Positions 5,922 through 11,598 of a stretch of DNA of 11,598 nucleotides are shown piece by piece (the first letter of the stretch is position 1; each line of letters starts with the position of its first letter). The position numbers were made by a program, and so were the translations under genes. Source of the stretch: Rhodocyclales bacterium (lineage in GTDB: Bacteria > Pseudomonadota > Gammaproteobacteria > Burkholderiales > Rhodocyclaceae); the NCBI GenBank assembly GCA_021286885.1, contig JAJTBM010000057.1, positions 1 through 11,598 on the forward strand, in the 5' to 3' direction. The notes below the pieces were generated by a model, which made no database searches, was not told where the DNA came from, and saw nothing but the letters and a program-made list of their open reading frames with translations.

Positions 5922-5997
5922 GCCGGCATAGCTCAGTCGGTAGAGCAGCGCATTCGTAATGCGAAGGTCGGGGGTTCGATTCCTCTTGCCGGCACCA
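5922..5997 (+). tRNA. tRNA-Thr (anticodon CGU)
   Basis: A 76-nt tRNA with encoded CCA. The acceptor stem is GCCGGCA paired with TGCCGGC, followed by discriminator A and CCA at 5995-5997. The D arm is GCTC...GAGC, the anticodon loop TTCGTAA with anticodon CGT, and the T arm has the GGTTCGATTCC signature. The anticodon stem GCGCA/TGCGA has a G-A mismatch at 27-43, also present as far as I recall in the E. coli Thr(CGU) gene thrW, whose anticodon arm looks the same. It reads ACG codons. Genes of this isoacceptor are known prophage integration sites, but no integrase or duplicated 3' end is seen beside it here. Confidence 0.97.
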
Positions 5998-6663: not shown

Positions 6664-7263
6664 CTACGCAGTTGCCTGCGTGCCACATTCCAGTACCCGC
6701 ACCGGCTGCCGGTAGTGGGCCGCCTGGGCTTCCAGGGTTTGGCGCAGGGCCTGGGCCTGGGGCGCCAGCAGCCCGTCCAGCACGATGAGGGTGGCGCGCC
6801 GGGGGCGCCAGCGGGCGAGCGCTGCCATGCGGGCTGCGTCCAGGTGGGCCGAATCCAGCCAGCCATCGTCCCAGGGCAGGGCGTCTTGGGGCGCAAACCA
6901 CAGCAGGGGCCAGAGTTGTACCTTCAGCCGGTAGAGCTTGGCCTGGGTGGGGCTGCGCCGGTCCAGTTCGGGATAGCCCGCCAGGGTGTAGCACAGCTGG
7001 AGCAGGCCCGGGCGGGCCTCGGCGCCGAGGGCTTGCCAGGCCAGGGGGCAGGGCGGCTGGGCTTCTGCCCAGGGCGTGGGGGTGCGCCCGTCGCCGCAGC
7101 CCTCCCGGGCCCAGTGGGCCAGCGCGGTGGGGAGGGGCGCGCCGGACTGGGGCTGGGGTACGGGACACAGGGCCGCCAGATCGTAGCGCCGCCGTAGCCC
7201 CACCAGGCGCGGCACCAGGGCCAGGGCAATCAGCGCGGCGAGGCTGGCGGCACCGCTCAGCAT
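6664..7263 (-). CDS. Hypothetical membrane-anchored protein, unrecognised
   Basis: A 199-residue protein I do not recognise. The start MLSGAASLAALIALALVPRLVGLRRRYDL is one hydrophobic segment followed by Arg residues, which predicts an N-terminal anchor with the rest on the cytoplasmic side, unless it is a poor signal peptide. The middle is Pro/Ala/Cys-rich, then Trp-rich (LYRLKVQLWPLLWF, LPWDDGWLD). The C-terminal part, RRATLIVLDGLLAPQAQALRQ, reads like a beta-strand/loop/helix unit with the Asp-Gly of a Rossmann-like fold, but no catalytic motif is clear. That it is real is supported by its ATG (7263) overlapping the methyltransferase stop by 7 bp and by its codon pattern. It is the last gene of a three-gene operon. 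Confidence 0.7.
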   Translation of the reverse strand: MLSGAASLAALIALALVPRLVGLRRRYDLAALCPVPQPQSGAPLPTALAHWAREGCGDGRTPTPWAEAQPPCPLAWQALGAEARPGLLQLCYTLAGYPELDRRSPTQAKLYRLKVQLWPLLWFAPQDALPWDDGWLDSAHLDAARMAALARWRPRRATLIVLDGLLAPQAQALRQTLEAQAAHYRQPVRVLECGTQATA

Positions 7264-8141
7264 GCGAAGCGGCTCCGCAGCTCGTTGAGGTTGAGGCTGT
7301 CGAGGATCTGCTCGATGCGCTCCATGGCGTTGCGACGCGGCTGGCCGGTGTAGCGGGCCACGATCAGCTCGTTTTTCATGGAGTGTTCCCAGCCCACCAG
7401 CTCGGTGACGGTGACTTGGTAGCCATGGGCTTCAAGTTGCAGGCAGCGCAGGGCGTTGGTCAGTTGGCTGCCGAATTCCCGGGTGTGGATGGGGTGGCGC
7501 CAGATTTCCGACAGGGGCGTGAGGCCGAAGCTGGCGTTCTTGTTCTGGCGCAGCACGCCGGCCACCTCCGCCTGGCAGCAGGGCACCAGCACCACAAAGC
7601 GGGCCTGGCGGGCAAAGGCGAACTGGATCGCGTCGTCGGTGGCCGTGTTGCAGGCGTGCAGGGCCGTCACCACGTCGATGCGCGGGGGCAGCAGAGGGGT
7701 GTTGATGGCTTCTTCGACCAGCAGATCCAGAAACTCCATGCGCCCAAAATCCAGCCGCTCGGCCAGCTCCCGGGAGCGGGCCACCAGCTCGCGGCGGGTT
7801 TCGATGCCGTACACGGTGCCCGCGTCGCGTGCTTTCAGGAACAGGTCGTAGAGGATGAAGCCCAGGTAAGACTTGCCCGCCCCGTGGTCGGCCAGGCTCA
7901 GGCTGCCTTCCTTTTCCAGCACCTCGGCGAGCAGCGGCTCGATGAACTGGTAGAGGTGATAGACCTGCTTGAGCTTGCGCCGGCTGTCCTGGTTGAGTTG
8001 GCCATCCCGGGTGAGGATGTGCAGCTCCTTGAGCAGTTCGATGGATTGGCCCGGGCGGATGTCCGGGTGGCGGGCCGGGGCCGCTTGGGTGTTGGGGCTA
8101 CTGGGGGCACTTGTGGCGCCCTTGCCCTTAGTTTTTGCCAT
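7257..8141 (-). CDS. SAM-dependent methyltransferase, Methyltransf_32-like
   Basis: A 294-residue class I methyltransferase-like protein. Residues 1-25 are low-complexity (Lys/Ala/Ser/Pro) and probably disordered. A helical region (about 30-80, IELLKELHILTRDGQLNQDSRRKLKQVYHL as shorter helices) precedes the Rossmann core. Motif I is LADHGAGKSYLGF (83-95), the acidic end of strand 2 is YGIETRRELV (Glu114), and ALHACNTATDDAIQ (160-173) and VPCCQAE (186-192) correspond to the ALHACG...TD and PCC signatures of the Methyltransf_32 group, which includes the C-terminal domain of GSTCD and METTL25-like proteins. The substrate is not known to me; an RNA or protein target is possible. The ATG at 8141 overlaps the DUF1415 stop by 14 bp, with AAGGCGG upstream inside that gene. 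Confidence 0.8.
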   Translation of the reverse strand: MAKTKGKGATSAPSSPNTQAAPARHPDIRPGQSIELLKELHILTRDGQLNQDSRRKLKQVYHLYQFIEPLLAEVLEKEGSLSLADHGAGKSYLGFILYDLFLKARDAGTVYGIETRRELVARSRELAERLDFGRMEFLDLLVEEAINTPLLPPRIDVVTALHACNTATDDAIQFAFARQARFVVLVPCCQAEVAGVLRQNKNASFGLTPLSEIWRHPIHTREFGSQLTNALRCLQLEAHGYQVTVTELVGWEHSMKNELIVARYTGQPRRNAMERIEQILDSLNLNELRSRFAC

Positions 8142-8706
8142 CGTTGCCGCCTTGGTAGCTTTCAGGAACCGACAGGCCCAGGGCCTTCCAGCCGGCGATC
8201 CCCAGCGTGCGCAGGGTTTCCATGTTGCGCTCGTAGATGGTTTCGGCTTCGGGGAAGGCTTCCACGGCCCGGTCGATGCTCGCTTCGCGGATCAGGTGCA
8301 GGGTCGGGTAGGGGGAGCGGTTGGTGAAGTTGGTGATGTCGTCCGGCTCGGTGCCTTCAAACTGGAAATCCGGGTGGAAGCTGGCGATCTGGAGCACGCC
8401 TTCCAGCTCATGCTCGGTGATGGCCTCGTCGGCGATTTCGAGCACGTCGTTGAACAGCAGAAAATCGGGGAACAGGGTCGGATGGATCAGCAGGGTGGTG
8501 TCGGTGACTTCCGGATCCACCTCGGCCAGGTGGTCCAGCTCCCGGTCAAGATCCTCCAGAAAGCCGTCCAGGTGGCGCGCTTCGCTGACCACGATGCGAA
8601 CCTGGTTCTTCACGTAAACCGACTTGGCGAAGGGGCAGAGGTTGAGCCCGATAACGGCCTTTTCGAGCCAGAGCCGGGTGGCGGCGATGATTTCTTCGTG
8701 TTGCAT
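8128..8706 (-). CDS. DUF1415 domain-containing protein
   Basis: A 192-residue cytosolic protein showing the DUF1415 pattern from end to end: WLEKAVIGLNLCPFAKSV (13-30, with the conserved CPFA), HPTLFPDFLLFND (76-88), IASFHPDFQFEG (108-119) and NRSPYPTLHLIREASID (130-146). The family is full length here. Its biochemical function is unestablished; the conserved Cys, His and Arg residues look like an active site or ligand pocket, but that is inference. AAGGAT at 8715-8720, 8 nt before the ATG at 8706, supports the start. It is the first gene of the operon with the methyltransferase and the 199-residue protein, and is divergent from the RbgA-like GTPase across 72 bp that contain GATAAT (8743-8748, plus strand) but no convincing promoter. 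Confidence 0.88.
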   Translation of the reverse strand: MQHEEIIAATRLWLEKAVIGLNLCPFAKSVYVKNQVRIVVSEARHLDGFLEDLDRELDHLAEVDPEVTDTTLLIHPTLFPDFLLFNDVLEIADEAITEHELEGVLQIASFHPDFQFEGTEPDDITNFTNRSPYPTLHLIREASIDRAVEAFPEAETIYERNMETLRTLGIAGWKALGLSVPESYQGGNDGKN

Positions 8707-8778
8707 GATCGTAAATCCTTCTAGGGGAGCGCATTTTGCCCTGATAATGGCAGGTTTTCATTGATTCAGGTCGCACCC

Positions 8779-9729
8779 ATGCCCATCCAGTGGTTTCCCG
8801 GTCACATGACTTCCGCCCGCAGGAAGGCGGCGGAGAGTATGGAGCGTACCGATGTTGTCATCGAAGTGCTCGACGCCCGCCTGCCCGAAGCGAGCAGCAA
8901 CCCCATGATCCGCGAGCTGCGCGAGTACCGCCAGCGCGCCTGCCTCAAGATCCTGAACAAGGCCGATCTGGCCGATCCGCAGATCACCGCCGAGTGGCTG
9001 GCCTACTACAACGCCCAGAAAAACGTGAAGGCGGTGGCCCTGTCGTGCCGCAAGCCCTCCGACGTGGCCAAGGTGCCCGGCCTGTGCCGCCCCCTGGCAC
9101 CCCATCGGGGCGACCGGCTCAAGCCCCTGCGCATGATGATCATGGGCATCCCCAACGTGGGCAAATCCACCCTGCTCAATGCGCTGCTCAAGCGCCGGGT
9201 GGCCGCAGTGGGCGATGAGCCGGCGGTCACCAAGCACCAGCAGACCTATGACCTGTCGCCCACCATGACCCTCACCGACACCCCGGGGATGATGTGGCCC
9301 AAGATCATTCACGATTCCGACGGCTACATGCTGGCCGCCAGCCACGCCATTGGGCGTAACGCGGTGATCGACGAAGAAGTAGCCTCCTTCCTGGGCGGCG
9401 TGCTGCTCCAGCGTTATCCGGCCCTGGTCAGCAAGCGTTTCAACACCCCCATTGAAGGCCTCGACGGCCCGGCCCTGCTCGAAGTGGTGGCCCAGCGGCG
9501 CGGCTGCCGGGTGCGCGGCGGCGGGCTTGATCTGGAAAAGGCGGCGCTCATTCTGTTGCAGGATTACCGCGATGGCGCCATGGGCCGCATCAGCCTCGAA
9601 AGCCCCTCCAGCCGTCTGGTGATGCTGGACGAACACGCCCAGCGCATGGCCGAAATCGCCGCCCGCAAGGCCGCCGGCGAAGAAGACCCGAATGCGCCGG
9701 ACGATCCGGACAGCCTGAACGACGACTGA
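8779..9729 (+). CDS. ylqF: Ribosome biogenesis GTPase, RbgA/YlqF type
   Basis: A 316-residue circularly permuted GTPase, in the family of B. subtilis RbgA, which helps late assembly of the 50S subunit. The permuted motif order is visible: G4 NKAD (60-63) comes first, then G1 GIPNVGKST (123-131), Thr151 region as candidate G2, and G3 DTPG (167-170). The opening MPIQWFPGHMTSARRK and VLDARLP (30-36) are hallmarks of the family. A helical C-terminal domain follows (LLEVVAQRRGC...LDLEKAALILLQDYRDGAMG), and the last 20 residues are acidic and probably unstructured. I start at ATG 8779, where family proteins begin, rather than at the in-frame TTG 8761 that would add six residues. It ends 18 bp from the end of the convergent channel gene, with no terminator visible between. 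Confidence 0.92.
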   Translation: MPIQWFPGHMTSARRKAAESMERTDVVIEVLDARLPEASSNPMIRELREYRQRACLKILNKADLADPQITAEWLAYYNAQKNVKAVALSCRKPSDVAKVPGLCRPLAPHRGDRLKPLRMMIMGIPNVGKSTLLNALLKRRVAAVGDEPAVTKHQQTYDLSPTMTLTDTPGMMWPKIIHDSDGYMLAASHAIGRNAVIDEEVASFLGGVLLQRYPALVSKRFNTPIEGLDGPALLEVVAQRRGCRVRGGGLDLEKAALILLQDYRDGAMGRISLESPSSRLVMLDEHAQRMAEIAARKAAGEEDPNAPDDPDSLNDD

Positions 9730-9747: not shown

Positions 9748-11283
9748 CTATAGCCCAAAGAACTCCCGGATCTTCTTGCCCAGGGCGGTGGCGTCCTGGG
9801 GGATCTGGGCGATTTTTTGCAGATCTTCGGCATGGCCCCGCTCCAGGGCCTGAAAATGGGACAGGCGCCGCTGCAGGATGGCCGAAATCCCCTCGGCCAG
9901 CTCGGGCCGCGCCCGCAGGATGTGCTCGAAGCCGGTCTTGTCGAGCCGGTAGGCCTCCATGTCGCTGGTGGCGATCACCGTGGCGCGCCGGGGGGCGCCG
10001 GTCATCAGGCCCAACTCCCCGAACACATTCCCCGGCCCGCGCTTTTCCAGCAGGCGCTGGGGGCCGCCATCGGGGGGCTGCCACCAGGCTTCGGCCTCGC
10101 CCTTCACGATGATGTACAGCCAGTGGGCGATGGAGCCCTGGCGGGTGATGATGTCGCCCTTGGCAAAGGGCGCATTCACCAGCCGCCGCGCCAGCTCCAG
10201 CTGTTCGACCTCCGAAAGCTTGGAGAACAGATCGATCTGGGCAATGGCCTGCTGGCGCCGGTTCAGCTCCCGGGCCCGCACCTCTTCCCGGTGCGCCTCG
10301 CCTTCCTTCACCAAATGGATGGTCTGGTCGCCCACCGCCAGGCGAATATCCTCCCGCTGCAGGGCCGCCAGAATGTGGCGCCGCACCTCCGAATCGGTGC
10401 TTTCGTCGTGGGCCGGGTCGGTGAGCCAGTAACGCACCTGGTAATGCCCATAGCCCGCCCCAAAATCCATCAACAGGCATTGGGGCTCAACGCTCGGGCT
10501 TACATGGGCGATGCGGGCGGTTTGAATGTCCTGCAATACCGCCTCACTCACCCGGCCCGGCGGTACCGACAAATCCACATTGAAATTGACCGAACGCCGT
10601 TGCAGGGGCACCTGTTGGCGCTTGTTGCACAGCACGTTGTAGCGGTTCTTCATCAGGTGGCTGTTGGGCATCACCACCTTCTCGCCGGTGCGGGTGAGGA
10701 GGGCGGTGTAACGCCACTGGATATCCGTCACCCGCCCCACCAGCCCGTTGATCTCGATCCAGTCGCCAATCTCAAGGGAGTTGTCCATCTGCAGCGCCAG
10801 CCCGCCCAGCAGATTGCCCAGGGTGTCCTGCATCGAAATGGCCAGCACGGCGGTCAGCACCGCCGAGGTGGCAAACAGCGCGGTGAACTCCACCCCAGCC
10901 ATGTTGAGCCGCAGAAAGCCCCACGCCACATAGCCCATGATGACCATGATGTCCGCCAGAATGCCCGACACCGGCACCTTGAGCCTGTCCAGAATCACCT
11001 CAAAAAACGCCAGCCCCAGATAGCGGATCACCGCCAGCCCCTCGCCAAACACCGCCATTTGCCGCAGCCAGCGCAAGGCCGCCTCGGGCAGATGGCCATG
11101 CAGCAGCCCGGCCAGCAGATCCCCGATCATGCAGGCCACAAAGAACACCGCCGTATTCAGCAGCGACCGCCGCCAGCGCCGCAAGGGCGTAAAAATCAGC
11201 CCCCCGGTCAGGAGCAGCAGGAAAAGGGCAAACGGAGTTTCCGGGCTATACACCGGAAACCCGGAATCAGAAGCAAGGAACAT
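9748..11283 (-). CDS. MscS-family channel with C-terminal cyclic-nucleotide-binding domain
   Basis: A 511-residue inner-membrane protein. Five hydrophobic segments are seen at about 19-34, 43-62, 82-97, 108-125 and 134-150, the last (ATSAVLTAVLAISMQDTLGNLLGGLAL) running into the MscS pore helix signature. The MscS beta-domain follows (NSLEIGDWIEINGLVGRVTDI, then VVMPNSHLMKNRY) and the alpha/beta domain to about 325. A linker with a charged helix leads to a CAP-like domain at about 350-470, whose phosphate-binding cassette FGELGLMTGAPRRATVIA (421-438) keeps the Glu and Arg that contact cyclic nucleotides. The layout matches the bacterial cyclic-nucleotide-gated (bCNG) branch of the MscS superfamily, so gating or modulation by cAMP or cGMP is the likely role. 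ATG 11283 is chosen, with GGTGGAG 10 nt upstream; a TTG at 11304 would add seven residues. Confidence 0.93.
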   Translation of the reverse strand: MFLASDSGFPVYSPETPFALFLLLLTGGLIFTPLRRWRRSLLNTAVFFVACMIGDLLAGLLHGHLPEAALRWLRQMAVFGEGLAVIRYLGLAFFEVILDRLKVPVSGILADIMVIMGYVAWGFLRLNMAGVEFTALFATSAVLTAVLAISMQDTLGNLLGGLALQMDNSLEIGDWIEINGLVGRVTDIQWRYTALLTRTGEKVVMPNSHLMKNRYNVLCNKRQQVPLQRRSVNFNVDLSVPPGRVSEAVLQDIQTARIAHVSPSVEPQCLLMDFGAGYGHYQVRYWLTDPAHDESTDSEVRRHILAALQREDIRLAVGDQTIHLVKEGEAHREEVRARELNRRQQAIAQIDLFSKLSEVEQLELARRLVNAPFAKGDIITRQGSIAHWLYIIVKGEAEAWWQPPDGGPQRLLEKRGPGNVFGELGLMTGAPRRATVIATSDMEAYRLDKTGFEHILRARPELAEGISAILQRRLSHFQALERGHAEDLQKIAQIPQDATALGKKIREFFGL

Positions 11284-11497
11284 GGCCTGTGGTCTCCACC
11301 GCAAAGATACAGGCCGCCCGCACCGGAGCGCAGACGGGGGACAGAGGGTTTTACGTCCCCGGGCGGGAAAAATCTAGGGTATGGGTGGTTGGGGCTGGGA
11401 GGTGTGCACGGTCTGTTTGGTGATGACTGGGCCAGTGTTTCCTCGAAAGGGGGCATCATCCGCCTATCGGGGTGTCTGGGGGGATTGGATCGCTACA
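11284..11497. other. Intergenic region between the channel gene and the attC site
   Basis: About 210 bp with no gene I can support. It includes GGTGGAG (11294-11300, minus strand), the channel gene's ribosome site, and presumably its promoter; TATCTT at about 11305-11310 on the minus strand is a candidate -10 without a -35. A GGGGAC/GTCCCC dyad (6 bp, 12-nt loop, around 11336-11359) is followed by no T-run. If the attC is the last of an array, the part from 11503 downwards is the ancestral chromosomal or attI-side flank. Confidence 0.4.
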
Positions 11498-11558
11498 GTA
11501 TAACGTTTGAGTTGACCCGCCCGCCGAAGGCGGTGCGGGTCGAACGAATTGGTTAGGC
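11498..11558 (-). repeat. attC: Integron attC recombination site (cassette-end element)
   Basis: Read on the minus strand, the site starts with R'' GCCTAAC (11558-11552, fits RYYYAAC) and ends with R' GTTATAC (11504-11498, one mismatch to GTTRRRY). Between them are the arm CAATTCGTTC, an imperfect hairpin, and the arm AACTCAAAC. The hairpin is GACCCGC / GCGGGTC with an unpaired A, then CCGCC / GGCGG around TTC. GTT and AAC extend it across an unpaired C. The arms TAAC(C)AATTCGTTC and AACTCAA(A)CGTTA are almost those of aadA-type cassette attC sites, in the same order. Length (61 bp), asymmetry and structure match the short attC class. IntI would recombine between G and T of GTTATAC (11504/11503). 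A cassette gene reading on the minus strand would lie at higher coordinates, and one seems to end there. Confidence 0.88.
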
Positions 11559-11560
11559 GT

Positions 11561-11598
11561 TTAATCGCCACGGTTTGCTAAGTATTCACCCGAGCAAA
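11561..11598 (-). CDS. C-terminal tail of a probable gene-cassette ORF (partial)
   Basis: Entering from beyond the window on the minus strand, one frame reads CSGEYLANRGD and stops with TAA at 11563-11561, two bases before the attC R'' box. Cassette genes normally end just before or inside their attC, so this is the best candidate for the last cassette's product. Another frame (FARVNT, TAG) is also possible. Twelve codons cannot identify a protein. Confidence 0.35.
   Translation of the reverse strand, partial: CSGEYLANRGD

Follow-up and report, generated by a model that had tools for sequence, protein, structure and literature searches.

An attC site, very probably genuine, at a contig end in a Zoogloea genome and its possible place in a cassette array

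The window, by which we mean the whole stretch of 11,598 nucleotides that was analyzed, corresponds to the entire contig C35 of a fragmented assembly and ends on the right at position 11598. Close to this end, positions 11498 to 11558 very probably constitute a genuine attC recombination site of 61 bp in minus-strand orientation. The source genus is Zoogloea in the taxonomy used for comparison; the genomes grouped there in this genus include G003, G005, and G009, whose mscS regions show 100% identity over more than 4.5 kb to records of Zoogloea sp. 1C4, a Zoogloea MAG, and Zoogloea ramigera NBRC 15342, respectively. We favor, with moderate confidence, the reading that the site is the distal attC of an array in this Zoogloea genome, either a CALIN or the last part of an integron that assembly has split.

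On the minus strand, the site reads from 11558 to 11498 as an R'' box (GCCTAAC, 11552–11558, minus strand, assigned by sequence and by alignment to the covariance model R1 described below), a six-base spacer, an arm, a loop of three bases, the returning arm, a further six-base spacer, and an R' box (GTTATAC, 11498–11504, minus strand, assigned by sequence), which is the predicted strand-exchange box. The consensus of the R'' box is RYYYAAC and that of the R' box is GTTRRRY; GCCTAAC agrees at seven of seven positions and GTTATAC at six of seven, the fifth base being off. The same GTTATAC box also ends two sites of a relative (L071:3669-3725 and L071:9461-9547) and one site on contig C380 of the window's own assembly (L088:6801-6881).

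The minus-strand fold forms a stem of 3 + 7 + 5 pairs with two unpaired bases, both on the R''-L'' arm. Fold and base check place one of them within the L'' arm (11535–11545, minus strand), namely the bottom-strand G at 11542, and the second at the bottom-strand T at 11534 (plus strand), the bottom strand being the window's plus strand; the L' arm, taken from the fold, lies at 11511–11520 (minus strand). In the plus-strand fold, some of the spacer bases are paired as well. In direct comparison to 200 dinucleotide shuffles, none of which was equally stable, the fold had a z of -4.7 (minus) and -5.1 (plus), a stability that by itself would fit a terminator too. A study from 2009 (PMC2727003) characterizes attCs by a partnerless bottom-strand G in L'', by bases that stand out of the helix on the R''-L'' arm, and by a central spacer that stays unpaired, and it places recombination at R' of the bottom strand; its example attCs are marked with three extrahelical bases, whereas the window fold has two. 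Rfam gave no match at the attC site, and its two matches in the window were a tRNA and, below threshold, the opposite strand of this tRNA.

For the covariance model, IntI genes in relatives were located with NCBIfam TIGR02249 and ten surrounding regions were taken, in which a motif-plus-fold script proposed 49 candidate attCs. R1 was built from 19 of these 49, which came from six of the ten regions and were hand-chosen for length and clear boxes; it comprises 68 positions and 13 pairs, and the window was held out. The window attC matched R1 over its full length (model positions 1–68 of 68) with 44.5 bits and an E-value of 2e-8 in a search of 100,966 bases, and with E = 6.7e-7 across the 3.4-Mb assembly, both values being rough because the calibration was short. 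It ranked 35th of 58 R1 matches, with 15 other sites in the relatives' regions and all 19 training members above it, so that every training attC scored higher than the window attC. The preliminary description, made from the letters of the window, had named a complete short minus-strand attC with the boxes GCCTAAC and GTTATAC, a GC-rich hairpin, and two unpaired bases, had considered a chance origin very unlikely, and had proposed a check by an attC covariance model; sequence, fold, and the held-out R1 match bear this out.

No other match was found with R1 in the window at E <= 1. A second place at 2182–2278, inside a LysR gene, had been listed by a looser motif-plus-fold script and was rejected, as R1 gives no match there. 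Across the assembly, an R1 search at E <= 10, with 150 of 3,698 candidates scored, yielded seven matches: five on C380, one on C49, and the one on C35. A second attC on C49 was absent from this search and was found by a separate R1 search of that contig. The motif-chosen training set could favor any hairpin with attC-like ends, but the confinement of all seven assembly matches to three contigs argues against such loose behavior. When the attC and the contig tail were compared to plasmids, two short hairpin matches were obtained (E = 0.8), which we took as chance. An exact-arm pattern had no match in 84,980 species genomes, a set that may lack the closest records to the window's genome. A further sequence pattern found the window site once and, in 22 of 60 genomes in all, gave many matches that by eye were not attCs.

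In its R boxes, spacers, stem, and extrahelical bases, the site resembles the chromosomal-integron attCs of Zoogloea and of relatives from the same order; it differs from the relatives' integrons in being a single site with no IntI found. The preliminary description had also likened the arms to those of aadA-type cassettes. The window attC shares AATTCGTTC and AACTCA with the site at L079:5159-5270, in line with the short (~60 bp) aadA type, and its arms presumably also resemble those of aadA itself. However, the stem arm and the spacer are each one base longer (by eye) than in the site at L072:13174-13233, the R' box of the window being GTTATAC, and the spacer between R'' and L'' exceeds that of the relatives' aadA-like attCs by one base (by eye).

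Since the R1 match of the window attC is on the minus strand, the cassette that it closes must be on its right and read leftwards; the attC is the distal end of whatever lies rightwards, not the start. The ORFs on C380 are likewise on the same strand as their R1 matches, and near IntI genes the attC matches are mostly opposite to the IntI strand (e.g., L071 and L072). The presumed cassette is represented by its last 40 bp (11559–11598, minus strand, assigned from the contig end and the translation of the tail); as the contig stops 40 bp past the attC, the cassette gene is missing. Within this tail, one of the frames stays open over 11 codons and ends in TAA (11563-11561), two bases before R''. 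This frame fits the end of a cassette gene, but it is too short to serve as gene evidence and proves nothing.

To the left, the attC is followed first by the 63-bp remnant of an insertion sequence, then by 130 bp that match nothing in the assembly, and then by a gene for an MscS-type channel with a cyclic-nucleotide-binding domain (9748–11304, minus strand; Pfam PF00924 and PF00027). This mscS-type gene is a neighbor of the attC and lies outside any cassette. The window genes away from the right end form an ordinary set: a RecQ-like helicase truncated at the left end (by eye), a LysR regulator, a metallo-beta-lactamase-fold protein, a ThiF-family protein, an M23 peptidase, a methyltransferase, a ribosome-binding-type GTPase, and a tRNA-Thr (CGT) at 5922-5997. 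The below-threshold Rfam match opposite this tRNA is a plastid ycf2 leader, probably merely the tRNA complement.

The insertion-sequence remnant is terminal and abuts the attC (11435–11497, minus strand), with position 11497 as the tip of the IS end, and it matches on C98, C197, C213, C333, and C239. The copy on C333 lacks the outer tip and continues into the gene of a transposase OrfA (Pfam HTH_Tnp_1), for which NCBIfam gave sub-cut-off matches only, with IS66- and IS3-type models first; the copy on C239 lacks the inner part. Partial copies of this one IS end are present on six contigs, including C35 (L002, L003, L004, L005, L006, and the window), and their neighbors differ. An insertion sequence that specifically targets attCs was considered and rejected, as the flanks of the four other copies that keep the end (L002, L003, L004, and L006) have no attC by eye and R1 gives no match on their contigs. 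Within the assembly, the junction between IS end and attC is unique to the window.

Elsewhere in the same assembly, cassette clusters were detected on C380 and C49. On C380, five attCs lie on the minus strand with starts 0.3-0.8 kb apart, each of them ending a same-strand ORF, and in two cases ORF and attC overlap by a few bases. The cluster (L088, G000:C380:12000-21675, attCs at 6801-8936) heads toward the right end of its contig. On C49, two attCs surround one ORF of 150 amino acids without a Pfam match (L089, 292-903), and this two-attC cluster is followed by apparent chromosomal genes. Four of the five cassette ORFs on C380 have no Pfam match and one contains ankyrin repeats, so that five of the six ORFs reaching an attC on the two contigs are without a Pfam match at E <= 0.01 and one of the six has ankyrin repeats. 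The preliminary description had noted that integron cassettes are usually novel genes; in the clusters elsewhere in the assembly, most genes are unrecognized. C35, C380, and C49 all end toward the attI side of their arrays; these three contig ends fit breakage within cassette arrays but may just as well reflect three separate loci.

C35 carries a single attC, whereas PMC9024848 gives at least two attCs as the default for a CALIN in IntegronFinder 2, with the remark that CALINs with a single attC can be true; it also states that CALINs are overestimated in draft genomes, where contig breaks split integrons. The window attC resembles a CALIN in that no IntI was found over the cut-off in the assembly and in that clusters are present on C380 and C49. 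The earlier proposal of an integron or CALIN beginning at this point is partly supported: the attC is a true one and is accompanied by the clusters on C380 and C49, but it is alone on its contig and forms a distal end rather than a start.

The search for an integron integrase, which the preliminary description had suggested, gave no match over the cut-off in the assembly (3,438,872 bases, 611 contigs, 2.78% contaminated). This is weak evidence because the assembly is only 80.5% complete, and the integrase may be in the roughly one fifth of the genome that it lacks. The region 1-1889 of C220 (L007) encodes an IS91-type transposase and a recombinase that resembles IntI and XerC/XerD and stays below all cut-offs. 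We rejected this tyrosine recombinase as IntI, as it reached 174.6 bits against a cut-off of 265, as neither of its two matches covers profile positions 179-236, and as it adjoins the IS91 transposase; it counts against this rejection that the integron-integrase model was the best in NCBIfam, just ahead of XerA, XerD, and XerC. All 14 of 14 control genomes also gave sub-cut-off IntI matches, and such matches therefore say little.

The mscS locus was also compared to that of relatives. Among 15 relative matches in all, 11 loci were fetched, and in all 11 a HIT-family gene is located directly upstream of mscS, with 81-100% identity to that of L061. R1 found no attC in these 11 HIT-mscS loci (47,418 bases), and the 294 bp upstream of the window mscS had no convincing match to the relatives' upstream regions. 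The window's assembly gave no close match to the HIT gene, the best reaching 38%, so that this gene is probably located in an assembly gap.

It was in principle possible that the site is merely a GC-rich hairpin or an intrinsic terminator that by chance carries AAC and GTT at its ends. The stem is indeed stable and GC-rich, and the loose script listed one other place in the window, but a hairpin of this origin would hardly explain the full-length match to a model from which the window was held out, the low E-value genome-wide, and the conservation of the spacers and of the unpaired bases on one arm; moreover, neither strand has a T run after the stem (by eye). We regard a chance hairpin as highly improbable. 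An assembly or binning artefact, in which the attC-bearing end was misjoined to the mscS contig, is quite unlikely in our view. In its favor, repeats, IS ends among them, are places where contigs break or are wrongly joined, the assembly consists of hundreds of contigs with some contamination, and the attC adjoins an IS end that is repeated on five other contigs, with the contig stopping soon after; against a misjoin speaks that the junction of IS end and attC was found nowhere else in the assembly.

The site could further belong to a lone cassette, or to one or two cassettes, inserted away from an integron at a non-classical site of the attG type, which we consider possible but less probable than an array. 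In favor of such an insertion, the sister genomes have HIT and mscS without an attC at this place, and attCs in the genus occur at many separate places. R1 matches at E <= 0.01 were obtained in at least 19 of the 23 Zoogloea genomes examined, the window's own included (150 candidates were scored per genome and the matches partly listed, so that the counts are lower bounds), whereas IntI matches at E <= 1e-60 were present in 8 of the 23, seven of them over the cut-off; 11 of the 23 genomes hence have attC matches without such an IntI. Among all 60 genomes searched, again including the window's own, 28 have an IntI over the curated cut-off; this count and that of the Zoogloea genomes with attC matches also speak for the main reading. 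The Zoogloea attCs are spread over many contigs: in G020, the matches listed fall at nine places, at least four of which are no closer than 20 kb to the ends of their contigs (117-488 kb), and in G017, which has no IntI match at 1e-60, those listed fall at six places. Some of the other dispersed places may belong to a single array that assembly has broken up.

Against a lone insertion, no clean empty site was found for the other dispersed attCs. At G020:C32, where the attC has a decayed R' box, there is about 1.3 kb more than in G019, and the G019 junction holds 145 unrelated bases. The flanks of G020:C71 are on two different G019 contigs, and a repeated element, presumably an IS, lies ~370 bp past the second attC. 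For G019:C4, only short weak matches were found elsewhere, with no ortholog. In the window itself, the outer junction would fall past the contig end, and at the inner one the attC meets the IS remnant. A comparison with Xanthomonas also argues against the lone cassette: according to PMC12444791, CALINs outside the main locus occur in about half of the genomes, and the positions of these CALINs are described as relatively conserved, which the authors contrast with the broad pattern of attG insertions. Off-target insertion, loss of intI, and rearrangement are listed as proposed origins of CALINs in a review (PMC8618304).

If the distal end of an array is indeed what the window preserves, the array would continue rightwards beyond the contig. 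The attC would presumably be active in recombination. Once single-stranded, its bottom strand, the plus strand of the window, would fold into the hairpin, which an integron integrase, from the own genome or acting in trans, would bind, reading the orientation from the extrahelical bases. The integrase would cut in the R' box, which would allow excision of the cassette on the right or its joining to attI or to another attC. The insertion sequence may have landed against the attC and decayed later, an order of events that we infer from the remnant abutting the site.

A search for papers that treat Zoogloea, integrons, and attCs together found none, which is weak evidence given partial literature coverage, and in the available portions of the literature joining Zoogloea, gene cassettes, and integrons, Zoogloea is named once per paper. 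By itself, the window attC adds nothing new on integron mechanism and is one more example of a feature that is ordinary in the genus. The more far-reaching idea that Zoogloea scatters cassettes over its chromosome by off-target integrase action, with the window attC as one case, appears rather doubtful to us. If it were true, Zoogloea would be a natural system for the genomic insertion seen experimentally at attG, where cassette insertion was reportedly demonstrated by Loot et al. in 2024. The scatter of attCs across the genus could merit a dedicated study with complete genomes. Zoogloea species are floc-forming bacteria of freshwater and sludge, and the window attC is a boundary point of the accessory genes available to this genus.
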